Source: Pegea sp. RAD2-039
Taxonomy: Eukaryota; Chordata; Thaliacea; Salpida; Salpidae
Assembly (NCBI GenBank): GCA_034620365.1
Contig: JAQGEQ010000363.1
Coordinates: 682,001 to 746,000 of the forward strand
Direction: 5' to 3'
Length of the DNA: 64,000 nt
The notes beneath the pieces are model-generated. The model searched no databases, was not told where the DNA came from, and saw only the letters and a list, made by a program, of their open reading frames with translations. Of this stretch, positions 3,001-58,032 are shown piece after piece. The number at the start of each line of letters is the position of its first letter. The stretch's first letter is position 1. The position numbers were made by a program, and so were the translations under genes.

Positions 3001-6000
3001 TAAAAAGATAATTGCCACATACTACGAAAAGCTTAAAGACATTATTACGGCTTACTGGCTTAAACTTTTCATTTAGTTGTCTGTAATGGTGATACCGATC
3101 GACGTTTTATGTAAATTAGTTTAAAGAAGTTTATGGTAAATTTGACAATTTTATTTAATCGTATTTTGAATATTAGCATGAAGCTGTCGTAAATTGCATG
3201 AGAAATATTTTATCTAGCTGATTATTTTCAACTGAATACTTTTTTATAGAACTAAATGAGACAAACTGGGCAAGATTACTGGTTTGATGGTAGATAACTT
3301 CATGTAAAGATAACAAGCTCAGTATTTCAGATTTTAACAAAGTGTAGAACATTAAAGCCATTGTACTTAGAAATTATTATCGATTATAGTACAAGGTATT
3401 AACACATTAAAAAAAGTGGTTGTAACACTTATATAAGACTACCGTTTCTATTATTGTAACATAATTTACGAAAATTTTATGTTTAAGACAATATCACAAA
3501 AATCAGATTTTTGTTAAAGATCGCCACTTTGACTATTGCGAACTTTAGTTATTGTTTATTTAGAGTTGCGGTTCCTTAAAAGTCTGATACCCCTTCTTAC
3601 TTTAGAAATGTGTTTAATCTATGATCAAAATATCTCTAACCGGCCGATACTGTTTGCTTCCAGCTCGACAAACATCGGTTACACCTGAACAATAGCAAGG
3701 TTTACAGATCGGTTGGCCCTCAATGTTTTGTACTGGGTAGCTTCCACTTTCACAGTCATCTAAAAACAGGATTTAATGATTATAAAAAGATGGTTAGAGT
3801 TGGCTTTAGACATCCAAATTTATTTACTTGCAACTATTTTCAAGATTGCGTCAGGAACAGCCAACTTCATCTTCATAATATTCATAGCTTGGCAACTATA
3901 AGCTCCTTGGTCAGTAGTTTGAACATTTCTAATCAACAAAAACATCAACATGACATTTGTAAGAACAAATTACGATATAATTGATTAATTTTTATGTATG
4001 TAAAATATAGACTTAATGTCTGTAATGTACATTCGATACATTTTTCTTTGATAAAATTATTTCTCCACTGAAAGTAAATACAGCTTACAAAAAGTCTAAA
4101 AATAACTTCAGAGGATTATAAGCGAAAATTTTATGAAGTCTGAAGCTTTTTAAATTATTGAAATTCAATAGGTGAAGATTGAAGTAAAAGTATTTTTGAG
4201 AAAATAAGTTCTACAAAAACCTAAATACTCTAGAAATGAAAAATTAATGTTCAATAAGTTTCATTTCACAAAGAGCACAAAACAAAAGGTTAAAAAAAAA
4301 AGATTTCCTCACCGTATTATCAGGGTGCCAAAACCATTTTCTGACGTCATAGTAACGCGAGGGGGTGATGGTACATTGTTCCAATTAACGCGCCAAGTTA
4401 TTACAGGCGTGGGAAAACCATCTGCTCTACACTCCAATCTAACAGTAGAGCCGAGAGTAGCGTTTACAAATCTGTTTGGAGGCTGAATGATTTGAGGCTC
4501 GCCTGAAAATCAATTTAATTATGACCAATTGGTGCTGTTGATAGCTGCTTCGATGCCACAATGGTTTTAATTAAAGATTTCAACTGTGTGATGCTGTTAA
4601 CAAATCACCGGAAGTTTAAAATCTCAATTTAGCATAAACATGTTGCATCTGCACATTGCATCACTAAAACTTTTGAAGGTTTCATTAAATTAAGGTTTTA
4701 TGTTGGTAAATGTCAAATCGATATTTGTTTTGAAATAAAAAGAACAAAGTTATGAGATTGCATCGCGCTATTACACTACAAGTAGAAAAAGGACCTGCTT
4801 ACAGCAAACCAGTATTAATAAAGTGGAAAACTAATATAACAACAGATTTGAAAGAAGGTTTAAAAAGATGATAATCAATAATTTAAAATCATGAGAATTA
4901 TTTTAGAATAGTTAGATAAGATCCTAATTTAAATAATGATTTATCAAGTAACAAGATAAAGTATTGAGTGAAGCAGACCTCAGAGCTAACTGCTAATGCT
5001 TCACTGGCTTTTGATAAAATCAAAAAAGTTTTAATTTCATCAATAAACTTTTTAGTAAAGAGAAAGAAGCTTCAAAAGTTTAATGAATTTCATAAAATAG
5101 CAAAAATCTACTTCATAACTATTTTTCTTTTGAATAATACTAAAAGATATAAAATAAAATCTTTAACTTAGCTGTAAATAAACAAATGCGACTTAAAATA
5201 AAATAAAAATAAAGATATAGATTAAAAATCAATCATTGATTGACCAAAAAGTAAGTTTTCATCAGCATTGTGTGTATGCAATAATATTGTGGATGATATT
5301 TATCCGTAAGACTTATAGTTGGCATAATGCACTTGCTGGTATCAAAGAAAAAATTGTGAGTAACCATAAAATTTCATTGACGCGTGAAAATTTTCACCGT
5401 AGAAGCATACACTTTTGTCTCAGTCAAAAGATGCAATAAAATATATTACAAACGATAAGCTTGGTAATTGTTTGATAATCCTTCCAGCAAAGCTACATTA
5501 GAGTATATCTTACAGTTACTTTGTGTATTTCACGTTATTTATAAATATAATGAGTGTGTTTCTTTGATTATCAGATTCAAGGTGTGAAGTAGTTTTAGTA
5601 ACGCCGTCATCAACCTAATATTAAACTTTATGTAAAGTAATCAAAATAGAGACAAAAAAATGTAGACAATAAGCAATATTCAAACAATCAACAAATTTGT
5701 TAAGTTTGATTCATTAAACTAAGCATTTTGGAGTTCTTATGAGAGTAAAACACATCTTTTATTATATAATAAGCAAAAATAGTTGTAATTGTACAGCTTT
5801 AGATATAATGGATATACAGATGACGTTAAGAAAAAGATATAAAAAATTCTTAGTAAGCGCTGGTTTATTTCTTATAATATTTGTTTTACTCTCAACTAGT
5901 CAATAAGCAACTTTTGTCGTAATTAGGCAACTGCATTACTGTTTTAGATATTACAAAATTGTCTGTATATTTTCAGTAACTATAATAGATCAGTGGTTCT

Positions 6001-9000
6001 TTATAAACATTTGCCAGTTGTAACTTAAATACTAAAACTTGTACAGTTTCAAAAAAGACAATCTTGCTGAAGTCTTAAATGATATAAATCAAACTTACTG
6101 CATCCTTTTTCATCGCTACCATCCGAGCAATCTTCCTCAGAATCACAGAGATAACTCTTTGGGATACAATTTCCATCAGCAACACATTGAAAGTTAGTTG
6201 AAGGACAGATCGATTCTGGATCATTTGGTGCTAAAAAAAGCAAAAATATTTTTGTTACTTTAAAGTAAATGTAATTGTGAAAATATTCTTTTTAAACTCT
6301 CTTAAAATATTGAATACGAGTTCTTAAATAATTTCTAGAATAAATGAAAGCAAGCTTATAGTTTGATTTTTTGTAGTTAACTTGATAGTTCAGTGACATT
6401 AAAAGGCAACAAAAATTTTTACATTTAAATAAAATTCGATTTGTAGATTATTTCCATAATAATAGTAATATATATTCACGATGGAAAATTAAAATTATTT
6501 AAATTATTAATTTTGTATTTGATTTAGGCCTTTGCTATAAGAATCTTTAAATATAATTGACTTAATTTACTAAATAATATTTAGTTTGTGAAAAAACTGA
6601 TTGTTGCCTACGAAATATGTTTCTAAATAAGAAAACATTGTTTTAATTTAAATAAATATTATTTTTAATAAATAAACCTTTTGAAAACGGAATAAATAAG
6701 ATGGTTGTAATTAGTTGACTAATTGAATCGCTTCAATACTTTTTGTAATAATATCTGATGACTTTATAACGTCGTTATAGTGAAGACCACTCTTATACGC
6801 TTACTTTAATAATATCTTTAACAGTAATCTTGTAAAAATACTCTTTAAATCAAACTTTTAGAACTGTAAATTGCTAATTATAAAAAATATATATTCAAAA
6901 CGATTTCTATATTTATATAGTTTTTAATATTTATAAACTCTAGGTATTTTATAAGAAAATCAATTTAAGTCAAAATTGACTGTCGAATAAACAAAGAAAA
7001 ATATTAATTTTTATTTGGATGAATTTATAAATTCGATAAGTAAACAAATTTTAAATTTTTGTTGAAATAGATGGGCAGATAAAAGATTAAAATGCAAAAA
7101 TAAACATAAAGATCTGATTATTATCTGATAAAACTGGTCTTATATTTTAAGTAAAGTTTAATTATCAATACAAGCACAGAATGGAAGATAATTAGAGTCA
7201 TTAAGCGCTCAATAGCTAGAAACTAAACTTTTCACTCAAATTCTTTGTATTTTTTGGCTGATAATTATTACTGAATGCGATTGACCATTAATTATCAATT
7301 AATTTTAAACCACAACGGCTTGTGCCTTCGTTAGAGTAATAAAGCCACTAAAGCATAATCGCTGTGAAATTAAGCTGCCAATCAAGATTCTTACAGCTTC
7401 TTCTATATTTTGTTTAATGATCCTGCTTAAAACCCCATTTTTAACATGTAACATCAGAAGATAAAAAGGGTCAATCTAAGATCTTAAACTATAAAGCCTT
7501 TGCGGTCAATGTAAAATAAACCTTGAACTTTGTGGTCAAAAGTGTTAATAACTCGCTCACACCTTAAGCAATATTGAGCAAATAAAGCCAGAGATCTCAG
7601 ATCACATATTCTGCTTAGCAGTAACTAGCAAGTTAATATAAGTTTATTAAAAGTATCTTTCAAAATGTAAAGGTCAGTAATTGCATCAAAGATCTTTTTG
7701 CTGTAAAAATATAAACATATTTTCTGGAAAAGGGTACACGCTACTAATGAGATATAAGCTTTATTGAGCGCAGTTGTAAAACACCCGCAAGCATCAAGTG
7801 CAAGATTTATCTTTAAGACAATTTTATATTAGTGTTCCTAGCCAAGAGCTTCACAGCTCAAGGTACTGAATTAACTCAGCTAGCTTCTTATGACATTTTC
7901 ATACGTTACTCAGGATTTAAGCCATAGCTGAAGCTAATACAATCAAAGCTTTTGACTTGCTGCAAATACATTAGGATACGTCTAATAAAAAAGAACTTCG
8001 TCAATACTTCTGGTTTTTATCATAAATTATTTGATTTTATCTCAATCAAAAGTAAAAAAAAACACAGCGTCTAATCCACTAAACTTAGTTGCATTTTGAT
8101 CGTTAAGAAGTTAAATAATAATTTACCCTATACTGGGATTGTAGAAAATTTTCCAGCTGTCTCAAGTATATATAATTGCTAAATCATTGGCATGTAAAAA
8201 TAGTTCTTTGAAGTTTTATTTCGTTGGACTTTACCTTAGAAAGAAAATCACAGACAAGAGAAAAATAAGCTTAGCTTAAAAAACCCCTGGGGGTTATATT
8301 AGTAGCAGTCCTGAAGAAAGACTTCAACTCATTTTTTCTCTTATTTACTCATACTAATCTGCCTTTAGGGTCTTGGTACTTGACATGTTAGGCCTGGTCA
8401 TAGCCGTAAAAGTTTACAGAATATAGAATAACTTGCCAGTATTCAAATAATGATAAGTTAGTACATGGCCCAAACTTGGCAAAGCCTAAAAAACTTAAAA
8501 AGTTCGACATTGATTTCTCAGTGTAATCAATTAGTTGTTGTTTGAGTTTACAACACAAGAAATCATTCCTGCCGAAGTTCAAGATTGTGTATCAAATTCG
8601 AGTTAAGTATTTTTAAATGAGAAATTGAAAATTAGATTTTACTGCCTAAGGTGCTTTATCATCTTGACGCCATAAAAATCGACCATAGTTGATTAGTATT
8701 TAGATCATATTTTTAAGATAATAAATTAATGGTTTAAAAGTTTATAATCGATTTAAACTCGGTGTTAATCTTAAACTAATTTCATATCTTTCATAATTTT
8801 GATAAAAACTACAATAATCTAAGTTCATAGAAAATATCTTGAATGGTAGAAGCAGTTATTAAAACATTTTTTTAATTCAGCCAGCTGATGGACCTGAAAA
8901 TAGAAAGGGCTGATTTCAAGCTTTACTTAGAGATGTGAAAAAATATGCAATTGGTATTTAGTAAAAATAAAGCATAAAAGTGGTTGATATTAACAAAACT

Positions 9001-12000
9001 TTCAGATAATGATATTTGAAAAAGTTTCTATATTTAGTATTTAAATCCTAATTACAATCGATAATGTTGGATTTTAAACAATACTTTTCTCATAAATAAT
9101 TCTATTAAGAAATACTACTTTTGATTCTAAAAAAAGTTAGATTAAAACAGTCTTATATTAAGTCACCTAAAAGATTTTAATTAATCCAACATAAAGTCAC
9201 ATGACTGGTGAGGATGGAAAAATTTATTAGATAATAAAATTATTCTCTTAAAATATTTGAGACGTTACCACTGTTTTGAAACTCATTAATTTAGTCTCGT
9301 AGCAGCTGTTTCGTTTTGAAAATTTTCCTAAGTTTAAAAATTTTAGAGATTTTGTAAGTTTGCTTTATTGTATCATAATCTTTGATAGTTCAAAGCTAAG
9401 CAAACAAGATTTTGTAAATTAGTTTTAACTAAATATATTTTCATAAATTCTTTTGTTATCTTGCTTACAAACATCAAAAGCTTTCAAAAAATTTGCCGAT
9501 AAAGAAGTTTTCAGTAAAATCAATTGAAACAAAACAAATCAAAATGTTCTCTTTTAAGTTCTTAACCACTCAAAACATTAATCGAAGAAAGATTAACAGC
9601 TAGATTAGATTTTTAAATACTACAGAAGTATAAATAAAATTTTGATTAAAATAAAAGTTAATGATTAATTTTTGCCAGGATAAAATTCTTTTTGATTTAA
9701 AAAAATGATTTATTTGAGGCATATTTTGTTTGAATTAAAGTTGTATTTAGGATTCAAACCACGATATTTACTGATAAAATTAAGTTTATTCAGATGCTGT
9801 CCAAAAGTGAGGTAGGTTAGTGAGAAAGTACTTTTAGCTGCAATAGCATCGAGTAAAATTTCTGCTTGTTTGCTCAAATACCATCTTGCTTTTTTCAATG
9901 ACCAAACATAGGTAGTTATAAAAAAAAATTCTGACCATTAACTAAATAAAAAACAAACATTTTATCCTAACTTATTAAGTATTCTAAACAATAGTATTAA
10001 TAGAAAAATAATAATTACATATTATTCAAATATATGTAATTAACAACAAACTTGCAAGTGACTTAAGTACAAGGTTAGACAGAAAATATTTGCAACTTAC
10101 GACAATTAAGCTCATCAAAACCGTTTGAGCAATCTTGATCTCCATCACAACGCCAAATTTTCTGTTTGCATTCATTTGTTCCATTGCATAGAAATTCTTC
10201 AGGGGCACAATGTCTTTCTTGATTTGATCCTGTATAGAATTACTTTAGGAGGATCAAATAGTAAATTTTTACCAGATGAATAACGTCAAAGTAAAAGGTT
10301 CATTTTTATTTCATTATATCATAAGTAACTTGATTTTTTTCTCACACCAAGAGGTTTATATCGCGCCTTTATTTTCTTTGGGCAAATTTACTTTTACTTC
10401 AAGAAATATTTTGACTCTTTTCAACACAGAATCATTTATTTCTGTAATCAAGCACACAACCTCGATTCCACTGAGCAAACTATTCAACAGTTTGAACAAA
10501 TTAATCTTTATCAGTTATCAATGTATTAAATTCCAAACTCAAAAATACTCCTTCAACCTCATAATTTTGCTCTTTAATTTGTGGGATAAAACTATAAATT
10601 AATTCAGAATGTTTGCCATACTTGTAACAACTGCTTGAGTTAGATAAAAATATGTTTTGAGTTAATTAATAAAGCCCCTAATTGAATTAGAAAACTTAAA
10701 TATGAATTCAATAATTGAGTCTAAATTTGATGTTTGTGTGCGCTAAGAAAAATTGTTGTTGAGAAAACAAAACATCTCAAGCATTGGACGTACCTTGACA
10801 CACTTCAGTTTCGTCGCTACCATCTGAACAATCAGCATGCCCATCACAAATTAAGTTTCTGTCAATACATTCGAGGTTTCTACACGTAGCCTGGTCGAGC
10901 CGGCAAGCACTAGGATCATTATATTGGGGTGTTGTTGATGTTGGTTTTACTCTAGCCTTCGTTGTTGTTCTACAAATAAAGTTTGTTTATTCTAAAGCGA
11001 GAATTTTACGAAAGTTAAATATTTTTTTAGTAACAAATTTAAATCATAGTTTAGTTCAATTTCTAGATATATTTGAGTTCCTAAAATTAATTTTTATTCA
11101 GATTTATACATTTAAATCGTTCAAGAAGATTAGAAAGCCCGTACAGCGAAAATTCGATCAAAATTTCAATCGATGGAAACTAGACTATAAATAAACATAT
11201 GCAGGCCTCATCAAAAATATATTAACACTGTTGGTTATGTTCACGATAAAAAAGTAAAATTATCGCAAAGGTATTCGACTCGATAAACTCAATTAGCTTT
11301 TAAAGTTTTCAAATTTACAGTTACTTAAAAAGATTGAATGATGAATAGACTCTTCTAAAAATGATTAAAGATTTTAACTGTAAAAGGCATACACAAATAT
11401 AGTTTTTCAATAAGCGCAAATCTTATAACGAAAATTTGATTTTGTGCAAGTCACAAAACTAATAGAACCAAAATGTGATATTTCAATTTGACATTTTAAC
11501 CCTAAGATTAAAAAAAAACTTGAGTTTTAAGAATCATGAAATGCTAGTCAATACTAATACACCAACCTTCGAACAATTGCTAAAATAAAGACTCTGTAGG
11601 TACTAGTCGGTATACCAAAGAGTTTTTAGATCCAAACATTTTAGCGGAGTCACGTATACAGTTTACAAGACTTTCAATTGAATTTAATTCTAAAAGTTTG
11701 GTTTTTTTAATATTAGCAATTGAGTTATCCTGTTCATTTTAATCAAAATGATAAATGAATTTTTATTTAGTTTACTTTGTGTTCAGCATGAGTTTATAAA
11801 AAGAGGTTTATGGGTTTGAAGATTTGTGTGAAATAGTTTCAATAAGTTAAAAAATAAATTTAATGAACTACTGTAGAGATAAAATTTAGAGAAGTTAAAA
11901 GTTTTCAAAAAACTTTGTGTTACAAAATGCTTAAAGACTTCCACTTAAAATGAGATAGCTTAAGAAGTTATTAAAACCAAAACTAAGAAATTTTCAATTA

Positions 12001-39813: not shown

Positions 39814-39898
39814 TTGCTAAGGCAGCTAAACGATCTTTTGTTGTTGCCTTATCAGTATAGTTTGAAGAAAATATTAATCTATAAAATCAAAATACCAG

Positions 39899-40100
39899 AG
39901 GATGGAGTAAGAGAGAGAAAAGCTAATAGATTGTGGCAGCACCCACCAACATTCGATCGAGACTGCTTAGCTTTTTTTGTAGAAAAAAGATTTTGTCTAA
40001 ACCTGTCTCGGTATGCTGTTAAAAGGCGAGCTTTTAACGTAGATGCTGAAACAGCTTTCGAGTACCTATACAATAGGTATGGCAAGCACAAACTGTTTTT
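39899..40100. other. Coding-like island open on both strands
   Basis: A patch of distinctly higher GC, open on both strands. Plus strand: acceptor-like CCAG before 39899, frame containing RKANRLWQHPPTFDRDCLAF and AFNVDAETAFEYLYNRYG, donor-like AATAG|GTATGG after 40076. Minus strand: a good acceptor-like TTAAAAACAG before the frame CLPYLLYRYSKAVSASTLKA. Neither starts with ATG nor resembles a family I know. Candidates: orphan exon, degraded mobile element protein, or conserved non-coding element 3.3 kb upstream of the TGF-beta gene. Confidence 0.25.
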
Positions 40101-40131
40101 AAGGGTCACATTGATAGGTGTGTACCTTTGA

Positions 40132-43414: not shown

Positions 43415-43745
43415 ATGCAAGGAAATGTTCTTTTTATGTCGGTCACTATAATGTTGATTCTTAATGATTGTGTCGTTGGCAACTGCGGATTAACTTTTGA
43501 AAAGATGAAAGACCGACGTTTAAATGCAATAAAAGGTCAGATATTAAGCAAGTTGGGATTCAATAAGCTGCCCAGAAGTGCTCCTCGTGATCCTCCTCGA
43601 GAAGATGAGATTAAGCTGTATAATATCACAAGAGATTTTGTGAATGAACAAGCTCGTAAAAAACAAGGAAATTGTGAAATGTCGGATGATGATTGGTTTG
43701 CTCAAGACATCACCACTGTTTACAGCAACATTCCAGAAGACCATA
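43415..43745 (+). CDS. TGFB: TGF-beta exon 1: signal peptide and latency straitjacket
   Basis: 331 nt, leaves in phase 1 with donor GTAAGT. The ATG at 43415 precedes a hydrophobic run (VLFMSVTIMLIL), a probable signal peptide ending near Gly22. Cys24 sits where vertebrate LAP has the Cys that links to LTBP or GARP. RRLNAIKGQILSKLGF matches KRIEAIRGQILSKLRL of TGFB1; KLYNITRDFV and WFAQDITTVYS follow in the same order. An extra Cys87 is not typical. Antisense and shifted frames over this exon are shadows. Confidence 0.95.
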
Positions 43746-46700
43746 GTAAGTAGTTTATCTATTTCTAAACTCTTATGTTTGAAGTTATTTACATTTTTCA
43801 ACACCCAAATTAAAGATAATTTGTTTTGTATCTTTATAAAAGATCAAGGTCATTGCATGATTAAACAGGTGTTATACTTAACTCCTTAATTTGTGATTAA
43901 TTACATTATAGAATATATTTATTTAACAAAACTAAATCATAAACAATAAGTAATTTCAATCCTAGAGGCTGTTGTCTTTATAATGTTTAAATTTAATTGT
44001 GTAACTGTTGAGGTAATTACATGGTTGTTTTATAATAACGTGTTCTCATTATGTTAATACTGATAGACTGTGAAGTTTCTTAGGAGTTTAGTCATCGTAA
44101 GCTTAAAACATAAGTCTATACTTTTCACAAATTTACCTTTGTGTTTTTTAATTTATGCAACAATTTGGTAACAGAATTATATTATTCAAGTATCAGCAAA
44201 AAGGAAACAAACTATTTTATTTGAAGCTGTTGATTGATAAACAAACTTTTCTTTGTCTAGTAAAGATTTATTAATACTTTTTGCATATCTTCTGAAAGAA
44301 CTCAGAAATGTTACAGTGTTAAGCTAACCCATTAAAATATTTAGTATATTTAAAATCGACTTTAACTCAATTAAACCCGAACAGGATTGAAAATCACCGT
44401 TTTTATATCACTAACTTCCATCTGCAAATTGATTTGAAAATTACTTGAGAGAAAAAAGAAAAAAAAAAGAGAAATTTAACAGTTAGCTAGCAAGTTGCGA
44501 TCGAATTGCTTTTGATAAAGTAGCTATAGCTCCTCACGCTTCGGAGCTTTCGTTTATTTACCAAAGTTACTTTCAAACATATTCACATAGGACAAAATAC
44601 TGATGGTTGCCTAATTACTTGGCGTTTATAATACTGCTGAAGCATGCAATTGAATTGTTACTTCAATTATTTCGAAAGTAGTTCCTCGTAATTGTATAAA
44701 GTTAATTTTAAAGTTAATTAAAAAATACCTTGTGGTTCATACCCTACTTTCTATTCAATTTTTCAAATATAATCAGTATTTTGAATGATCTTTGCTGCTT
44801 ATTGAATGAGGGCTCAGTTTATTGCTCTGTCTCATTTAATTAGTTTTAATTAACCCGAGTAGTGACAGGAACAAACATTATGAACTTTTTTTTCATATTG
44901 AATCTCTATTCTTGACATGTGTCTTATTTTATTGGCTGAAACTATGATAAAAAATTAAAAGAAGTAGAATTAACACGGATGCCTTCATACTTGGCATACG
45001 TTTACCACATTTGTTACTTGGCTAAAATCCAAACTTAGCTACATAAGTCCTCAAAGAAACTTTATAATCATTGGGATAGAATTCAAACAATATGTTCATT
45101 GAATAAATTTTTTTTATTTGATACTAAATTATAACAATCAGCATTTTACATAATCTAAATTAAGCATGGCAATGATACAGAAAAAAATTAGAAGGATTTT
45201 TTTAAGCAAATCTATAAATTATGATTTTTAACATTTTAAACTAATTGTCTTCAATTTTTCATTTCAATTTGTAACCAATATAAATACAGAAGTATGTTTT
45301 TAAATGGATCTTTGCTATTACTTATATACTTTTAATTTCATGGCATCTATCTTCGTTTGTAGGTTTAAAACCTCTTGAGTATTTAACAAATATTTTCTAA
45401 CAAGGCTAAGCTGAACTTTACAATCAACTGTTCAGATCAGCAACTGTTTGTTAGAATAGAAATTCAACTAACCTTACTGGCGTGCTCCAAGCATAATTCA
45501 AGCTGACTTCATAAAACCTTTATACAAGCCGATGTTTGGTTAAATTTCGTTTATTTTTATGTCAACAACAACAAGACTACTAAAATTTAACAAATAGAGT
45601 TTACAAACAGAAAAATTAATTAAACTAAAACGTTATTCTTACAGAATAAATAATATCGATATTATAATTATTATACACAACTATTTTAAGCTCTTCTACT
45701 TGATATTATTTTTTAAACCAGTTTTGTAAAGAACTCATTCAAACTTTACTTGAATCATGGAACATATTTTCAAGAGCAATAAATCATTAATACCAACATC
45801 GAAAGTACTACAAGTGACTTTTCTAGTATTTGCAGGAGCAATACTAAATTATATATAGTTGCTTCTATACAAGATTGATGCTTTTGGAGCAAAGTTAGAA
45901 ATTAAATGACTAATATATAAAAGTGGTCTTAACTTCAAATTCAACTCAGACACACAAAACCACAAATAAGCTAGTCTCGTGACTAATTCAACTTTTTTTC
46001 AAATTTACAACTGACAGCAAAAAGACAATTTTTAGTAAGTTGTCTCTTCGTAAGTTTATATATATGCACACGTATATACTACCATATTATCTTTATAACA
46101 TCAGTAACAAACCCATTTTCCATATAAACCAGTGATTGCTAAAACCTTCTTCTAAAAGCTTCGTACTACAATTTATAAGAAATAGATTTTTCCAACTGTT
46201 TCCTGTATGATTTTGCTGGTTGTTTTACATCTGAGTTGTTCTTGAGAAAAAAAATAAATTTCATACAGACAGAATATTTGATGAAAAGTAAAGATATGAA
46301 AGTTATAAAATCAGATTTTAATCAAAAACTTTGAAATTACTCAACAAATGAATTATTTTATGATTGAGATAAATTGAGTAAGAGAAAAAACTTAACTTAA
46401 AGTATTTTCAACTCAATTTTGATAAACTTTAACAATATTTTTGAGGAAACTTAAGAATATTTAGTCGGCTCATAGAATCATACTAATCTGATATTACGCA
46501 AATATGGAGCACAAAATCGATCGAGCTTTCTTACACCACATGTAGTTAGTGTTACCAGGCTTTTAATAACCACAGCTCTTATAAACCTAGCTTTTTTAGT
46601 TAAAACTTTCAAATATTCCATTAAAACCAAATAAAATAAATTACCTCAAATACTCCGCTATCAAAATATTCCATTTAAAGTTTATTTTGTAAACCCCAAT

Positions 46701-49700
46701 CTAAGTTCAAACTTTAGCTTACTTTTTAATGAGCAAAATAAACAAATTTTTAATCGAAATATTTCATGATAACTTCCCACATGATCTTGTTTCAAATTAA
46801 AAGTTAGAAGTCAGCTGAATTTAATTCGTGTCTGAGAGAGTTTTTGATAAAAATCGTAAATTATTAAATCCGTTTAACCCGTATAAAACAAAATACTTTA
46901 AATATTAGTTTTAGAAATAAGTTAATTTAGTTTTGATAAAATCAAGATAAAATTTTTTAAAGATTAAAAGCAACATTTTATTTTACTATAGAAACTTTGA
47001 AGGAGTTCTCTAGTTAATTTGTTTTTCATTTTACTAATGCTTCTTGCAACAAAGCTTGATGCAAAAAAAGATGCTACTCAAGTTAATAAAAGCTTATGTT
47101 TCAAAGCATATAAAATAAATAACTATAAGAAAAACATTTGATATATAGCTTAGCCGTACAACTAGAAAACAAAACTATTTATTTTAATATTTGTTAAACT
47201 CTTATTAAACTTATTGACCAGATATTGTGTAAGTCTAAAAAAAATTGGCTGAAAGTTGAAAAAATCGTTGATATATTTCTTATAAACTGCATTTTTATGT
47301 TGTTTTAAACTGAAATTACTTTCTATCAACACAAAGTAAATTTTAAACTAAAATTGTATTTTCTTTAAATTATAGAAAAATAAAGCAATTTCATATTTTT
47401 TATTAAATATCTCAAAATCATCAATCAAATACCTTTATAAGAAAATCTATTTTGAGTTTGATGCCTACATATTTTATCTTTGTCAAGTGGAACAGTAGAA
47501 AATAATGGATTATGATAAATTTAAAACCATCTATCAACCACAGAATGATTCTGATGCAGCGGGAAAATTACTTATCAAAATTTTTAACCTAATTTGTATT
47601 AAAAAGAAGTGTACTCATTAAATTTGTGTGGTCGCCTAAACACAAACCTTATTATAGAAAATAGAAGTTTGAAACGCTAGACTAATCACAAATATTGTTG
47701 ATAGATTTTCTAACTTGTTAGAAGTAATTGTACCATAATTCTTTTTAAGCTGAAATATACTTAACAAATGAGTTGATTTTAGTATTATGTTTTAGCACTT
47801 CGAATTTAAGTCAAATATAAGTAACATTACTCAAGTAAACAAGTATCTTATAACAAATTTAAGTATTTCATGTTTCAGGATTCTGTTATAATGAAATTAT
47901 TTTTGTTTAAACAGATGATTACGAAGACGACAACGAAAATCAGGCAGAATACTTTCACTTTGATTTATCTTCGTATGAATTCGAAGCTGAGCAGGTTGTC
48001 AGTGCAACACTGAGACTACATCAAGTTAGAAAAGAAGGAGAAAGCCAAAACACAGAAGTAAGTTATATTATTTCCTCTTTAAATTGTTTTTATTTTTGCT
48101 CTATCAATTAAAAAAATAGAATAATTGAGTTGAATAAGAGTAAGTTGTATTATTTTATTTTTCTTGTAAACGATGTATTTTCATTCCACCTTAAGTACAA
48201 TTTAATGTCAACAAATTTCATGCAAAGCCCACAAATTATTCTAGTACGTCATAAAATAAACCTTCTAAGCTTATAGCTCTGCAAATATATGACTTCCACT
48301 TTTTCCGTCTGTACTTAACGGAACTTTCTTCAACAAATATTTATATAACTTACGTTTGAAGAGATATGCGTGTTATCAGTGTGCTTAAAATAAAAAGTTA
48401 CTTTGTTGTAACCTAACAATTTAAAATTCCCAAAAATCACTGTCAGTACAGTAGCCAATGGTAAATTCAAATCAAATGGCAAATCTTACATCTCAGATCT
48501 GCTAGTAGACGTCTTAGGGCTGTTCTTGCTATATTCTGATTATTTCTAAATATTTAGAGGAAAGAGTTTAAACTAAATAAAATCCTATTTAGTTTGTACA
48601 CAGCAGCATAAAATTTGTTGTCAAATCAAGAACAACTTCATTTGTAATTTTTTCAACAAATAACATAAATAAGAGAAAATCACGTTTGCTTAAAAACAAA
48701 GTAAAAATATAACCAAATTATTTTATAGCTGATAATTATTTTACTTGAAAACTTATTATTCTATAAAGATCATATTATTAATAAGGCTTTCAAAAACTTT
48801 AATTTTCCGATTATAAGATTTTTCACTGTTCGAATTTAAATGTATTTTTTTCACATAGAATGAAATCACCATTTTCAAGTATGCAATTAATTTCTTTAAA
48901 CAATCTTTTCCTTTGAGTATTATTAAAGTTTCAAAATGTTTTTTTCACAAAAAAGATCTTTTTAAATTTATTTTTTCAATGAAAAACATACTTTCAGAAA
49001 ATGCTTTTACAAACATAACTAAATCATCAAATCTATTTCCTCCCATATAAGAAAAATTTAGTATTAAGTTTGCCCTAACCCTAACCACAAAAAGTATAAG
49101 CTACTTACTGAATTTAATTGACAGTTAGACGCAATAATTGAAAATCAAACTTAGGTAAGAGTGATGGTGAATATAAGTTTGTTTGCTGCTGGTAAGCTGC
49201 AGAAAAACATTCAAAACTTTTAAGTATCTGCATACCAGTAAACATGTTGATTAACATCCAAATATCATTTACAGGTTATACTTAATGAAATATTAAGCGC
49301 CAATGAAGAAAACATTCTTGAAAAACGAACTCTGCATGCATTTACTGTCAATTTGCAACGGGAAGGCTGGCTTTCGCTTGATGTCACAGAAACTATAAAA
49401 CGATGGATTCGTTATCCAGGTAAATGCAAATGCTTGTTTTTGACTTCTGCAGTATCTAATTACGTCAGAAAAACTCATTCAAATGACAAAATTCAGGAAG
49501 TTGTTATACAAAGCACTTAATACAGAGTGTCAACATTTTTCTTTACCTTTACTTTAAATTCTTTTTTAATTTTATTTATTCAAACTCATACAATTTAAGC
49601 AGCATAGTTTGATATTGATTTATTTTTAACATTTCTATCTATATAACCTGCAAACATATTTATAAGAAATATGTATAAAATTCTAAACTCACATACACTC

Positions 49701-52700
49701 AAAAAAGTTTATTCAGAACTACTCCAAATAAACGTATTTTTAAGATATGATGTAACAAAATATATTCAACGAAACATTTCCAGAATTGAGAAAATTGAAT
49801 TTTTCAAAATAGTTTATGATATCAAAGACTGGTGTGTTCTTCATATGTTGGTATAAATTATTGTTGTTTCTTTTAAGACTATTCAAGCATAAGACAGTTC
49901 GAAAGTTAAATATGTAAGCTTCAAACTGGGCTCAAGTTTTGTTATAAACTGAACCACTGATAACTATTAAAACACAAAAATCATAGTTAGTGTTTAAGCT
50001 TTGAGTAAAATCTTCTAATCATCGAATAGTTTTTTATTCTAAGAAAAGTTTTATTTAAAATCCAATTTTTGTTTTATAGTAATAAAGATGTTAGCTTTGA
50101 TAACATGGTTCATATTAAATTATAATCAACTTCTTTTTATTTTAACTGCCAAAGAATACACCAAACAAAGGGAAACAGTTTTGAAAAATAACAAGAAAAT
50201 GGATAATAAATAAACATCATAAAATAAGTTGTTAAACTTTATTGAGTTTCTTTTGTTTACAATACTTGATATATATTATTAAAAGTTTGAAGATTTCAAA
50301 TAAGATATAAAAGCTTTTTTAAACTTCAATATCATTATGATAAAATATCGATGTCAAATTAGTTGTCAAAAACGATTAGATAACGTCAGCAATACGCATA
50401 CTATTGAATGATAAATATATAATGTTAATCTGGGCATGGTTGAACAGCTAGAAAGGTCACCAAGCAAATAAAGCTAAATGATGTCAATGTTTAAATACAG
50501 ACAAAAGAAAGTTGAGATGAGATGCTGATAGTTATTGAAATTAGGGTGTTATATTATTGACATTAAACAAGAACATCATTTTCGAAGATTGCTTCATTAA
50601 TTAATGCAGAGGACTTACATGTCCCAAATTGCATTTCAAAAAATGCTGTAAGCTGATTTCATTTGGAAATTATTAACAGTAAAAGAGGATAAAATTTCAA
50701 CTTCTTCAATCGTCAAAGCACTACGCAAACCTATGACGTTTGACCCCCATTCTTAAGTGAGTCACTAAAACCAGCTGTTCACGTTGGTTTGTCGGCGCTT
50801 ACAGACCCTATGAGGTCATTCATTGTGGCTTGATCACGTGACGTAACTTAATTCTCCGGACGCATTTTATTGGATGACGTAAATGAAAAATTATTTCCTT
50901 TGATGTAACAGTTTAGTTTTGAGAGCATTGAAATGAAGAGGGAGTAAGATTGCTGTTTCCTACTGGCTTCCTTACCATTTCTAATCTGGTTAAAATTATT
51001 AGAAAGAGCTTAAACTCCAATAAGTAAAATATGGAGACCCGACTGCATCTGTAAGCACTCAAACTTCATCAAGTTTTTATCCAATATTTACTGCTTTTAT
51101 TGGAAGAACTTTTTCAGATTTTATTTCAACTGTAAACCAATAAGTCAACTTTTTAGTAAACAAATCCTTCAGTTGAGTTTTTAATTTCTTTCAAGAAGTT
51201 TAGAATTATAAAATCTGAATAATAAATAATTTGATCAAGTTACATATGATAAGATCTTTTATTAATACCGATTTCGATAATTTAGTAAAAAAACTTTAAT
51301 TTTCAGCAATTTTAAAGAGTAGTCAAACCAAAGAATAACTAAATTCGATTTTCACTAATTACTGACAAATGATAAAAATATAAAACCGCTAAATACCTTA
51401 ATCAATTCAGTGTTTAGCATACAAGATATTTAGACATTATTGAAGTTGGTTTCTTTTAATGTTAGCGATACAAGTATATTCATGTGTGACAAAAAACAGC
51501 TGGTTGCTCTTGTAGTGTCATAAAGTAGTGTGCTCCCTAGAGATATGATCAGATCAGAACAAGAAAGCAACATTCAATGCAGGTGTCATTGATAAAGTAC
51601 AAAGAAGAGACGTGACACTTCAAATAAGCAAGATGGTGACCTGTCAGTTTCACTGTTACTTGTTTGAAGTCAGTTCCTTATAAAGTATCAGACAGAAACT
51701 TTTGAAGATGGGTGCAAGCAGCTATAAGGGGTTGATTAAGACAGAAGAATTTACTTATTTTCATTTGGTACTAAGATGTGTTAGTAAAGACAGTAGCTTT
51801 TTTATGTAGCCTAAGGCAGTTTTATTATTAAGAATTTTGTATAAGTAAAATTATTTTAAAAGCTAATTTCTAAGTATATTTTTAAGCAGTGTTTTACATA
51901 CACATGTTGCATTATGCTTACTATAACAGCCTAATACCTTTTTCATTTTTACTGCAACACTGTGGAAAACGTTATTTGATCAGATTTCAGTTGCTTTTTA
52001 ACTATCTGTTTTAATTGTAAATAAAAGAAGGTATTAGTTTGTTCCCAGTCATAAATGTATTAGATGTAGTTTGTCAAACATTTGATACTTGCTGTTTACT
52101 ACATGTAATTTTGTGAAATGGAAAAACAATTTTTAATCAAACTTTCTACTGTTAAGTTTCCACCCTGTAATGTAATCATCACAAACAACAATTAAGTTTC
52201 ACAAGTTGAATGAATACAAGATTGTTTAATATGTGTAGGCTTTGTAAAAAAGGTTGTATTGTTTAATTTTCTATAGTATCAAAATGAGGCGTTAATATAT
52301 ATCAAGCAAATCATAATAGTTGTTTTTTGTGAATAAAATCCGCATCACTCATCACTTTGATTAAATAGGTTCTTTATATCTTGTGCTGTGGTATTAGCTT
52401 ATGATTATGATTTCAAATAGCTAAAATTGTTTTAAGGCAAAATATCCAAAAAAAATTAAGTTTCATTGTACTAGTGAGCAAAAATTAGATATCTACTAAT
52501 TTGTTATGCTCTGTAAGCTTGCGTATGTTTAAGTAAATAATCTATTCGTGAAAAAGTTCAACAAATTGTGTATATTAGAAGATAAACTTATCAAATTTGT
52601 AATATCAATTTTTTACTATTTTGCACTTCAATTTTAATATTTATTTTCAGTTATAAAAATGTATTGATGATTTAAAGCACATTAGTCATAGTTTCAATTA

Positions 52701-55700
52701 ATGTATACTCATTTTTGTATTTTTAAATGAAACTATATTGAACACTCTTAGGAAAGTATATAGATTAAAAACAATTCTTAATTACTACATAAGCTGACAT
52801 AGCGTAAAGCAAAGTGAATGTTTATATAAAATGACTCGACCCCAATTTATTTGTAGCTGTAAATACTGACTTCGTTCATATTATTTAATTGTAATAGCTT
52901 AAAATTGTTCAAGTATAAAATAAGATAATTTCTACAAAACTTAAGTTTTTAAATAATGAAGTTACTACAAGCTGGAACATTCGTAAATTAAATGATTTTA
53001 ATTAAACATCATTATACAATTCATTCAAGATGTAATAATAAATCAGCTCTAATCTATAAGAAATATCATAATCTTAACTTATTCAAACAGCTATAAAATA
53101 GATTTGAAAGCTCAGTTAGTTGCTGTTGATCAATCACAATATTCATTCATTTCTCTTAAATTTATACTACACTTTATGCAAGTATTTGAAAAATATATGT
53201 TAAGCTTACAAGATTATAGCAAATTTATCAAATTTTAAACCATACAAAATTATCTTGGCATCTTAAAATAGAATAAGGAATCATGAAATCTTCCACTTGT
53301 TTGTATATTTACAACAAATCTGTTGCCGTTTTCTAAACGCAAGGTGTACTTTAATGCCTAGTGGCAACTACCTTTGTATACAACAGATAGTAGTAGGCGA
53401 GAAAATAATGAATTTTTTTTTACTTTTTCTTGTTTTACCTCCGACGAATGTAGACGTTTAAATAAAAAAACATCAAAAATTACTTTAAATTCTTTTTCGT
53501 AGCATTAAAACATGAAAAAACAATTAATGTCGAACTTAAGAACACTGTTTTGGTTAATATATGAAGACAATCTCACTAATATTAATTTTTCTCACGCTCT
53601 AAAAGGTCCATAGCTCTGTCTCTCTCAATGATGACTTTGTTCTTTTTATTACTTTCGTGTTTGCTGGCGGAAATCAGTTGTTCTATCCCAAGAAATCTCC
53701 TCTTTGCTTGCACAGCGCAGCTTTGTGTAGTCTTACAATGACTACTCATAAGTTTAAACAAGACATCCCTTTCAAATAAAATACTGCTGATTGCTTTACT
53801 CTAGCAATAACAAGTTGATAATAATTTATAATAACAAGTGACCTATATCAAACATATCAATAAGCTTTCTTAGTTTTATGCTTAAAATATGCTTATAAAA
53901 ACTCATTTGTATATTAATTTGCTTATTTTCAAAATCAAATCACCACAAGTCTTCAACATCATCAGAGGTACAACTAAATAAGAGTTATTAGATCTCTTTA
54001 TCAAAAATAATAACAGAGAAAAGAAAAATGGTAAAAGTCTTCTAGGTTCATATTATTTGTGTTTACACTCTTTGTATTAAAGTAAAATTAGCAGAAGTTT
54101 TTTTAGTAGCTTCAAACTAATTATTAGATTTAAAACCGAAATTATTCACTTAGAAAAGAGAATCTCATTTTTCTTTGTATACTCGCTTCCAATTGCCAAC
54201 AAAACTAAACTCATCTTCTAATGTCAATTGTCGACTTGTCAGTTAGAAAAGCTCTATACTTACTGAAATTAATACCTAATTTCTGAAGTTTGTTTATGCT
54301 TGATAAAAGAGCTTGAGCTTTGCAAATATTATTTATTTATTTTACATTTAAATATTATCAAAGATGAAGTTCATTTAAATGAATGAGAATTTCTAGTATA
54401 AATAATTGTTCTTTATTATTTATTCATTAATCATTTTCCTATACTTGAAGTTTCGAGGTCCTACTTGAAATTTTTTTATAAACAAATTTATTTTTTGACA
54501 AGAAAATCATTAATTAGGAGTGGCCTAATTACGAAGAAGATAATATGATTCTTGATAATTATGATAATATGAATAAAATGATGATTTACGGGTATTTTCC
54601 AAACATTTTTGAAATCTAAAACAAAATATATTGTATTATTTACATTTAACGCCATATAAATTCTTATCAGACAATACTGCTATAATTTTTTTTAATTTTA
54701 ACACTTCAAGCTATAAATTAAAATTGTTATGGAATCAATTTTTAATTAAGTGTGCAGATTTTCGTATTATCAAATGAAAAACTTATCTAAGTAGTTTATA
54801 AAACAACTTAACCATTTAATCACAAATTTGTCAACATAATTGGCAGCAGATATCTTAATGTTTGATAAAATAAATGATAATTTAGACCTTCTAAACTATA
54901 CTTGACGATTTACAGTAAGCGTATACCAAAACCGTTTAACTGCATCGTAAGGTTAAATCATTTGCAATAAGAATAACTTTCATAGTTTTTTTATAATTGC
55001 ATTCCTTTCATGTTTTGTACAAGCTGTTTGAACTACCTTTCTGTTTATGCGTTGAAATTAACTTACCCTGGTATCTTATTAGCTATTTCTATGAATTAAT
55101 TAGAAACAAGGTCATGCAAAACTGATTATTACAAACCATAAACCAATTGAAAAGTCATTAAGTATAAAATAAATAAAGATTTTATTAGGTCTTATGTTAT
55201 TACAAACTCTTGTAATATACCTGTTATATTTTATGGTTTTAACTGCGGCAAAAGAGAACTGTAGCAAAAAATTAAAATTTTTAGGCCTTAATTGTTTTGT
55301 TTTGTTTAAGCCATTCTTGGCTTCATTGTGCTTGTAGACCACACTAATGATTTATAACCAAATGATTAATTCAGTACTGTAAGTATTTTTAAGAAATTAT
55401 TTGACTTGATGCATAAGAAATAAAAAAAAGAATAATTTACTTCTAAGAAACAATTTCTTGCAAAGAAAGTAAAATAAATTTAATGAAAAGCTGTTTCAAG
55501 TATGGCATTTGCAATATCTGCGTAACAACTGTAATTCAACACTTGTTTACTCCAAGTGAAATTAAAAAGTAACTTTCACTTCAGCTATAAATTAAAAATT
55601 GAAAAAGAGTTCAGCAATTTGACTATTTTAACTAAAGCCTGAATTTCGTAATTTTAAAATGTATCTGCTTTTTTCTTGTTTAAAATTATTGGAATTTTAG

Positions 55701-58032
55701 TTTGTGCCAATGCGGAATCAGTCATTTATTCTGCATATGGCTAATCGTATATTAACAATTTCATCATGATGTCTATCGTGAAATATAACTGTTATGAAAT
55801 AGAGTTAAACACTTTTTTAAATAGCTCAAGTGAATCTTTTAAGAGTATTTTATTTATTTTCAAATAGTTTTAATTATAAACACAAAACAACCTACAAAAT
55901 ATTTATGCAAATATTAAACTTTAATTATTAATACAAAATATATATAATCCTATAATCACTCAGACACTATTTGATATTATATAAATAATATGTTAAACAC
56001 GGACTTCATCAGTACCCCCTAACAACAGTTTTAAAATTATTTATGTCGTAAAAAGAACTTTCTATGCCCTAATTTTTGTGTGGTCATTTTAAGGGTCGTT
56101 ATTATGATGATTAATGATTTAAATGTTCTCTAAAAGACACTCAATTGTTAGTTTGTCAAGAATAATATTATTTATTTGTTTACAGATCAAAACCAGGGAC
56201 TGGAAATGACTTTACCTTGTATTGATCACTACGGCTTTACAAATACAACTTTAAAAACAAATATTGAAGGTACGTTCATAAGTACTTTTCTTTCGCTTTT
56301 TCGAAATAAAAGTAAATGTGAACATAAAAATGTTTTAAGTAATTATCGACATTTTTATTTTATTCAAATTTTAAAAAGATAAATTCTTCTCGTATTTTGA
56401 AGAAATTAGTCTAAACTATTTCATATAGATAACAGTTTAATTGACAATAATTAACTGGCTCAGTATGTTTGTTACAAGAAATCTATTACTTTAATTTAAT
56501 TCATTATTAATTTTTTATAGAAATATTTTATAAAAAGAAATTATTGTTAACTATAAAAAGCTTTTTTATTCGCAGTTTGAATATTAAAATTTCTTGCTAT
56601 TCTAATAAACTGAAAACAACAATTGTCTTCAACAATTAAATCTCAAATATAATTATCTATTTCTTAAATTGATTGATTCACAAATGATGAAGCTCACAGC
56701 TGTGTAAATAAAACCTAAATATTAAACCCACCCTTAACAACTTTTTAAAGTTGACAATTTTTATTTCGTCCAGATGTTTTTATTTTAACAAATTAAAATA
56801 CTTTTTTGATATTTTTTTCAAAATAAAGAAATATTGTTTATTAAACTTTTAGTATTTTAAACTATTTTCCAAAATGTCTTTTTATATTTTTTATTTGCAT
56901 ACAAGTCGACGATAAATGGTTAGAATTTTTTAATCTTTAATACTTGCTGAGGATGAAGCAAATAGTGTTAAATCTATTGTTTTAAGCCTACTAGTAAATC
57001 GCCAAGTTTTTGTAAGAGCTTGTCGTAGTGTTTCAAACGTTTTGTGCGTTCCACGTTGCTGAACAAGCTTGTACCACATGTAGGTTATGATGTAATTGTT
57101 CGTTTTCGACTTTCCACCGATATCAGCAAAATACATAAACTTTTTTTGCGTAACTAATTCTTTTCATTACTTTCAAACTTTTTTGCTCGGTTGAAATAAG
57201 ATACTAACTGACTAGAGATTTAAATACAAAAACATTTTATCATAACTAAATTGAATAAAGTTGATAAAATCAAATTAGATAGATTAACATTCTTATAACT
57301 ATAAAAATAGTTTGAATGTTTCTAAATTCTACAGAAACTAATTATCAAACTAAGTTAGCGAAATTAAGAACTTAAGTATGTTGTCCATTTCAAAAATGCC
57401 AGCTATGCCCCAGAATTCACATTAAGTAAAGTAGAAACATACGAACTGAGAACGCAAAGAAGTTTATCATGTTTTACTTTTTTTTTAATTATTTAGGGTC
57501 AATCAAGAAATCACCTCGTAGAAAGCGACATCCTTCTCGAGGTGATGTACATGTAAGAAGTGTTCCTGATGAAGAAGATCTGAACGAAAACAAAATGAAT
57601 TTTCCTCATATCATCATTATGACTCGAGCTACCTCTGCTGAAGACAATAAAAATAGTCGTCATAAACGCTCGATCTCAAAACCTCGTCGCCTTGATGCTG
57701 AATACTGTTTCCGGCAATATCCTGACCAGCTCACTTGTTGTCTTCGAGAATTGTTTATTGATTTCAAGAGAGATCTTAATTGGAACTGGGTGGTTTCCCC
57801 AACTGGATACAAAGCTAACTTCTGTGCTGGTACTTGTCCGTATATGTACAGTGGTGATACAATGCACTACAACATCTTGTATATGCATCGAATCAATAAT
57901 CCTAATGCTTCTCCTACTCCTTGCTGCACTCCTAAAGAATATGCTCCTCTCACTTTGATGTATCATAAAGATGGCAAATATCGAATTCGACAACTACCAG
58001 ATTTACTGGTAGTTTCGTGTAGATGTGGTTAA
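43415..58032 (+). CDS. TGFB: TGF-beta (sensu stricto) ligand precursor, five coding exons, complete
   Basis: Secreted latent growth factor that signals through type I/II Ser/Thr kinase receptors and SMAD2/3. Seen: exons 43415-43745, 47915-48057, 49275-49419, 56186-56269, 57497-58032, all GT/AG with matching phases (1,0,1,1), 412 aa plus TAA, close to the length of vertebrate TGFB1-3 (390-414). Domains: signal peptide (1-22), straitjacket helix with Cys24 and AIKGQILSKL (38-47), arm domain, RGD (249-251), RHKR furin site (289-292), mature ligand (about 300-412) with nine cysteines and the FIDFKRDLNW, GYKANFCAGTCPY and PTPCC signatures. These separate it from activin, myostatin, nodal and BMP families; the N-terminal latency segment is specific to TGF-beta proper. 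Receptor-binding details are inference. N-glycosylation sequon N70-I-T aligns with the conserved YNSTRD site. Confidence 0.96.
43746..47914 (+). other. TGF-beta intron 1 (4.2 kb)
   Basis: AT-rich; no nested gene seen. Contains a purine tract at about 44450-44476 and small GC-richer spots (44500-44560, 44960-45020) without recognised features. Confidence 0.65.
47915..48057 (+). CDS. TGFB: TGF-beta exon 2: prodomain
   Basis: 143 nt, phase 1 in, 0 out; too short to stand out as an open frame. After an acidic start (NDYEDDNENQ) it reads EYFHFDLSSYE and VVSATLRLHQVRKEG, aligning with YFRFDVSAMEKN and KAEFRVFRLQ of TGFB2. Acceptor TTTAAACAG, donor GTAAGT. Confidence 0.93.
48058..49274 (+). other. 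TGF-beta intron 2 (1.2 kb)
   Basis: No exon seen. Holds an interstitial CCCTAACCCTAACC (49073-49086), a little over two units of the animal telomere repeat. Confidence 0.6.
49275..49419 (+). CDS. TGFB: TGF-beta exon 3: prodomain
   Basis: 145 nt, phase 0 in, 1 out. Encodes VILNEILSANEEN and REGWLSLDVTETIKRWIRYP; the WLS.DVT.T...W motif is a hallmark of the TGF-beta LAP arm domain. Acceptor ATTTACAG, donor GTAAAT. Confidence 0.94.
49420..56185 (+). other. TGF-beta intron 3 (6.8 kb)
   Basis: Longest intron of this gene. The left third contains a GC-richer block (50690-51060, listed separately) and another at about 51520-51760. The remainder is AT-rich without recognised features; open frames at 49671-49856 and 55112-55342 resemble nothing. 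Confidence 0.6.
50734..50885. promoter_or_regulatory. Intronic cluster of CRE, E-box and CCAAT-like sites
   Basis: Within about 150 bp: TGACGT at 50734, TGAGGTCA at 50811, CACGTGACGTAA at 50835-50846 (E-box overlapping a CRE half), inverted CCAAT (ATTGG) at 50869 and TGACGTAAAT at 50875. The block is much less AT-rich than the intron around it. It looks like an enhancer or a second promoter. About 150 bp downstream lies ATG (51031) followed by a donor-like CT|GTAAGC (51051), which would suit a short alternative first exon. Inference only. Confidence 0.4.
56186..56269 (+). CDS. TGFB: TGF-beta exon 4: prodomain
   Basis: 84 nt, phase 1-1. Encodes DQNQGLEMTLPCIDHYGF and TTLKTNIE, matching NLGFKISLHCPCCTF of vertebrate LAP. 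Only one Cys (218) is present where vertebrates have a CPC pair used for the LAP dimer disulfides. Acceptor TTTGTTTACAG, donor GTACGT. Confidence 0.92.
56270..57496 (+). other. TGF-beta intron 4 (1.2 kb)
   Basis: Mostly AT-rich, but 56930-57136 is a GC-richer patch with a 68-codon frame on the minus strand (listed separately). It ends with a strong pyrimidine tract and TTATTTAG before exon 5. Confidence 0.6.
56930..57136 (-). other. Antisense coding-like island in TGF-beta intron 4
   Basis: Complete frame of 68 codons on the minus strand in a patch of higher GC. The middle, YMWYKLVQQRGTHKTFETLR then QALTK, recalls the last helices of Death domains (pattern W..R.G..AT...L..AL). The rest does not, and no splice partners were found. 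Could be a relic of a Death-fold gene or chance; low certainty. Confidence 0.18.
57497..58032 (+). CDS. TGFB: TGF-beta exon 5: RGD, furin sites and entire mature ligand
   Basis: 536 nt, phase 1 in, ends TAA at 58030-58032. Residues 235-412: RRKR (242-245), RGD (249-251), NFPHIIIMTR (268-277, matches PHLLLML), RHKR (289-292), KPRR (296-299), then the mature domain LDAEYC onward. Nine cysteines: C305, C314-C315, C344, C348, C377-C378, C409, C411. C1-to-C2 spacing is two residues longer than in vertebrate TGFBs, and the protein ends CRCG instead of CKCS. The whole mature domain is in one exon. Long open frames antisense or frame-shifted over this exon are artefacts. Confidence 0.97.

Follow-up and report, generated by a model that had tools for sequence, protein, structure and literature searches.

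The window, that is the whole 64,000-nucleotide stretch of DNA analysed (C21:682001-746000 of a genome of 105.7 Mb, assembled in 387 contigs), contains on its plus strand an intact gene for a 412-residue TGF-beta proprotein, and the host of this gene is a tunicate. We consider it very probable that this tunicate gene is orthologous to vertebrate TGFB1/2/3, with a product which, as homology would predict, is secreted, dimeric, cut by a furin-type protease, held latent and released through its RGD motif.

The gene model was obtained by reading the open reading frames and splice sites of the window, and its frame is stop-free across five coding exons. The features are the following:

43415..43745, plus strand: coding exon 1, from an open reading frame and a donor site; residue 26 onward aligns to the TGFB2/3 proprotein
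within 43415..43745, plus strand: signal peptide in coding exon 1, assigned by eye
43484-43486, plus strand: Cys24, exon 1
43526-43555, plus strand: straitjacket motif AIKGQILSKL, residues 38-47, exon 1
43619-43636, plus strand: YNITRD glycosylation site, residues 69-74, exon 1
exon 1, plus strand: Cys87, read from the sequence
47915..48057, plus strand: coding exon 2, arm domain; GT-AG, phase 1 in and phase 0 out; aligns to TGFB2/3
49275..49419, plus strand: coding exon 3, arm domain, from the splice-site model; the PF00688 match of the genome search lies here
49368-49394, plus strand: WLSLDVTET, exon 3
56186..56269, plus strand: coding exon 4, end of the arm and bowtie region, from the splice-site model
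56218-56220, plus strand: Cys218, the single bowtie cysteine, aligned to a TGFB2 bowtie cysteine at the end of the match
within 56186..56269, plus strand: NTT glycosylation site, exon 4, read from the sequence
57497..58032, plus strand: coding exon 5, holding RRKR, RGD, RHKR, the whole nine-cysteine mature domain and the stop codon
57517-57528, plus strand: RRKR, furin-like, residues 242-245, exon 5
57538-57546, plus strand: RGD, residues 249-251, exon 5
57658-57669, plus strand: RHKR furin-type cleavage site, residues 289-292, exon 5
57691..58029, plus strand: mature TGF-beta domain, from LDAEYC to RCG; TGFB2 133 versus GDF11 71 bits, tree support 98/94 with TGFB1-3

All the features that an earlier note on this DNA had named (Cys24, AIKGQILSKL, YNITRD, WLSLDVTET, RGD and the nine-cysteine mature domain) are present in the sequence; its start and end, 43415 and 58032, are exact, and so is its length of 412 residues. 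It had also counted five junctions, but five coding exons leave room for four. The four introns are all GT-AG, with phases 1, 0, 1 and 1, which are the phases of introns 1-4 of human TGFB1 as well. The coding exons of human TGFB1 have sizes of 355, 161, 118 and 78, compared with 331, 143, 145 and 84 in the window gene, and the human gene has two further introns downstream (5 and 6), which are absent here, the mature domain being encoded in one exon. The nine cysteines of the mature domain (305, 315, 316, 344, 348, 377, 378, 409 and 411) follow the TGF-beta spacing.

Regarding the domain content, the 412-residue protein matched the Pfam families TGFb_propeptide with 92.8 bits and TGF_beta with 84.4 bits, both above the cut-off. 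A CBM96 match of 20.9 bits (cut-off 26) was dismissed as chance. When the frame of exon 5 (57430-58032, of which the first few residues come from the intron) was searched, the best matches were TGFB2 with 133 bits (E 6.4e-38), TGFB3 with 131 and TGFB1 with 126, and the best ligands of other types were GDF11 with 71 bits and then activin A with 68. The prodomain searched alone against PDB gave TGFB2 with 72 bits (E 5.4e-19), TGFB3 with 65 and TGFB1 with 38 to 50 depending on the chain; GDF8 reached 22 to 26 bits. These two TGFB2 E-values, together with both Pfam domains above the cut-off, exclude a chance resemblance.

The sequence comparisons support the assignment of the gene to TGF-beta sensu stricto, and neither to the activins nor to the myostatins, as the earlier note had proposed. 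A maximum-likelihood tree was built from 18 mature domains, namely nine human ones, that of the window gene and eight others from the same genome. In this tree the window mature domain joins human TGFB1-3 (support 98/94, and 97% of 200 bootstrap trees), apart from GDF8/11, activin and BMP. Its identity is 51% to TGFB2, 47% to TGFB3 and 44% to TGFB1. Furthermore, a genome-wide search with PF00019 gave 27 matches and no second gene of the TGF-beta sensu stricto type, the other 26 matches having been read as translations (8 of them in the tree); a gene whose domain is interrupted by introns could escape this search.

An activin- or myostatin-type ligand that came to look like TGF-beta by convergence would also have nine cysteines, as both of those groups do, and myostatin/GDF11 likewise has a latent prodomain, the weak GDF8 similarity of up to 26 bits being in line with this. 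Nevertheless, myostatin/GDF11 is clearly a weaker match than TGFB1-3 in both domains: activin and myostatin ligands score around 60 bits below TGFB2 in the mature domain, and the GDF8 prodomain lies 39 to 46 bits below TGFB3 and TGFB2. The tree excludes a placement with either group and a separate GDF8/11-like family is present in the same genome, which leaves convergence extremely improbable. The same low standing must be given to the possibility that a TGF-beta gene copy has decayed here or become a pseudogene. The large, AT-rich introns and the absence of human introns 5 and 6 would agree with decay, but the frame has neither stop nor frameshift, every splice site is canonical, the mature domain keeps nine of nine cysteines, and none of the 27 PF00019 matches is a second copy of this type. 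The gene is not a processed copy either, since it is multi-exon.

The third alternative is a true TGF-beta gene in a protostome or another non-deuterostome host, which would widen the subfamily beyond the deuterostomes. The GC content of the window, 26%, fits many groups, tunicates among them according to excerpts of PMC8704543. Passages of PMC8931421 restrict the TGF-beta subfamily to deuterostomes, and in an excerpt of PMC3169577 the membership of ctenophore ligands is doubted. By contrast, one survey (PMC9857879) reports TGF-beta homologues from sponges and cnidarians onward, placing the first TGF-beta1 in sponges and the first TGF-beta2 in Cnidaria, apparently by a method that admits looser homologues. 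What decides the matter is a gene elsewhere in this genome. The genome search for GH6, taken as a tunicate marker, gave a match at C14:74494-74718 (27.5 bits, cut-off 27), and the surrounding 8.5 kb (C14:69501-78000), read exon by exon from the genome, hold on one strand a predicted fusion gene with introns. It begins with frames for cellulose synthase (62.6 bits to PF13632, 31.2 bits to PF03552), continues with a frame that has hydrophobic stretches and no Pfam match, and is followed by two frames matching GH6, one with 34.8 bits and one with 22.0, the latter below the cut-off. According to PMC7464555, a cellulose synthase gene occurs in no animals other than tunicates, in which it includes a GH6 domain, and GH6 elsewhere in Metazoa is rated doubtful or contamination. 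Therefore, since cellulose synthase and GH6 lie on one strand and tunicates are the only animals from which such a fusion is reported, we place the host among the tunicates, and the suspicion of the earlier note that the genome is non-vertebrate was right. Protostome hosts were considered and set aside, and a non-deuterostome host is, on this basis, very unlikely. Xenoturbella bocki was also dropped, because its genome has a GC content of 43% (an excerpt of PMC11521371) against 26% in the window. The mitochondrial COX1 gene, sought for the genetic code, gave no match in the genome search.

Regarding the latency features, the tunicate TGF-beta has the same domain order as the vertebrate TGFB1, TGFB2 and TGFB3 proproteins (PDB 8fxs, 8vs6 and 8rex), and it shares with them the single N-terminal cysteine, the straitjacket, the YNxTRD site, the furin site and the nine-cysteine mature domain. 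The RGD is at the same place as in TGFB1/3, and Cys87 aligns with the extra cysteine of TGFB2 and TGFB3. Cys24 sits 13 residues ahead of AIKGQ and was assigned as the carrier cysteine by position, given that the PDB alignment begins downstream of it. There are also differences. The vertebrate pattern is RGDLxx(L/I), and the LxxL/I downstream of RGD is the motif for the integrins alpha-v-beta-6 and -8, whereas the window protein reads RGDVHVRS, with VHVR after the RGD and no LxxL/I motif. Unlike vertebrate TGFB1-3, it has an additional RRKR three residues ahead of the RGD. The bowtie contains one cysteine, Cys218, instead of the pair of TGFB1-3, which links the two prodomains (the pair is described in an excerpt of PMC7017013).

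By analogy with the family, the protein would be secreted as a disulphide-linked proprotein dimer and cut at RHKR by a furin-type protease, and the prodomain straitjacket would then wrap and hide the mature dimer, leaving it inactive. A disulphide through Cys24 would anchor the complex to a carrier protein or to a protein of the matrix, and the ligand would be released when an integrin binds the RGD and opens the prodomain by pulling on it. A cut at RRKR, if it occurs, would part the RGD from the arm.

As for the carrier, all nine matches of the genome search with PF00683 (TB) fall in one fibrillin-type gene, C21:1046657-1055725. This gene is on the same contig as the TGF-beta gene, around 307 kb away. 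In number and order the nine matches resemble the domains of a fibrillin, seven TB and two hybrid. Seven matches have 2 residues between Cys6 and Cys7, one has 3, in a frame that may overrun the exon end (L035), and the remaining one has 10. This last match, the second in order, was tried as an LTBP-like insert and rejected, because it occupies the position expected of fibrillin TB1 and human fibrillin TB1 has a similarly long gap. The LTBP-type TB domain, with a two-residue insert and thus a spacing of 4, was found in none of the nine PF00683 matches, in an exon-by-exon search that can miss split domains. Passages of PMC3306419 give seven as the TB count of fibrillin and describe the two-residue insert as critical for binding of the latency-associated protein and as absent from fibrillins. 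Since the insert was not seen in any PF00683 match, the genome may lack LTBP. A literature search on LTBP with tunicates gave nothing on LTBP in tunicates among the matches listed. The search with PF08917 (TGFBR2 ectodomain) gave no match in the genome and none in the controls either, and is therefore uninformative.

The claim of a full vertebrate-style latency design goes too far, given one bowtie cysteine instead of a pair, the missing LxxL/I, and an exon-by-exon genome search in which no LTBP-type TB domain was found. It could be supposed that the carrier-binding cysteine, straitjacket and RGD are kept in a genome without LTBP and with a single fibrillin-type gene, that some other partner, for example fibrillin itself or a membrane protein, then serves for the large latent complex, and that the one-cysteine bowtie and RRKR reflect a separate mode of keeping and freeing the ligand; we put this forward tentatively, as a rather unlikely reading.

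Among the 27 PF00019 matches, 22 belong to one nine-cysteine family that appears more unusual than the TGF-beta gene itself (loci L009-L030, on contigs C10, C23, C31, C36, C44, C59, C78, C128, C166, C238, C271 and C374). Nineteen copies are the C10 copy itself or 64 to 67% identical to it, the other three have 37 to 40% identity to it, and four 26-residue fragments match too. We read the family as GDF8/11-like because of three results: the C166 mature domain matched GDF11 (62.8 bits) and GDF8 (62.3) first in PDB, narrowly, ahead of GDF5 (60.5) and TGFB2 (58.9), and the C10 copy has two prodomain frames, each of which had GDF8 on top with E about 0.01 in a search of its own. The seven of 22 copies included in the tree form a single clade (98/97), with no supported join to human GDF8/11.

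Most copies lie in recent segmental duplications. There are two main sets, with about 88% identity between them, whereas inside a set the stretches common to copies extend to 8 kb with about 94-97% identity; the two C59 copies are 99.9% identical across 4.1 kb. Over 420 bp, dN/dS was 0.16 within a group of ten copies, 0.64 within another group of six, and 1.01 when the ten were compared with the six. A motif search, for which 6 to 10 kb were read per copy, located the first prodomain exon in 14 of 19 copies and the second in 13. No upstream prodomain exons were found in this way for L016 and L020 on C128, and fragments of the mature domain may therefore be among the copies. Haplotypes in the assembly may have raised the copy count, yet five copies share one contig (C128:1-133774, 134 kb).

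Elsewhere in the window there is a perlecan-like gene at 831-10986 on the minus strand, with laminin IV (Laminin_B), Ig and LDL-receptor class A exons and a laminin EGF match just below the cut-off, and a 105-residue open frame without a Pfam match at 39814-40131 on the plus strand. The window was also scanned for Rfam families and tRNA genes, with no match. Scans for relatives of the TGF-beta gene, which reach close relatives only, gave 37 pattern-matching stretches in genome_contigs and 6 in viral_contigs, none of them confirmed.

The TGF-beta gene is what one would expect in a tunicate from PMC8931421. Its passages report a single TGF-beta homologue in sea squirts, and an RGD in the TGF-beta prodomain of tunicates, hemichordates and sea urchins; compared by description, sea squirt, amphioxus, acorn worm and sea urchin have one TGF-beta gene per genome, and one was found in the genome analysed here. 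The earlier note had expected the gene to bear on the age of latent TGF-beta, and this expectation must be given up: since the host is a tunicate and a single RGD-bearing tunicate TGF-beta is already reported in those passages, latent TGF-beta is not extended outside the deuterostomes. Tunicates are close invertebrate relatives of vertebrates and such a gene was known there, so this is an ordinary find, which adds one tunicate sequence and little beyond. It does provide a clean intron-exon and motif record for a chordate TGF-beta gene outside vertebrates, in which the one-cysteine bowtie, the second furin-like site RRKR, the missing LxxL/I and the lack of any LTBP-type TB match may be new points. 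With Cys24 kept and no LTBP visible, it also becomes testable which protein was the original carrier.
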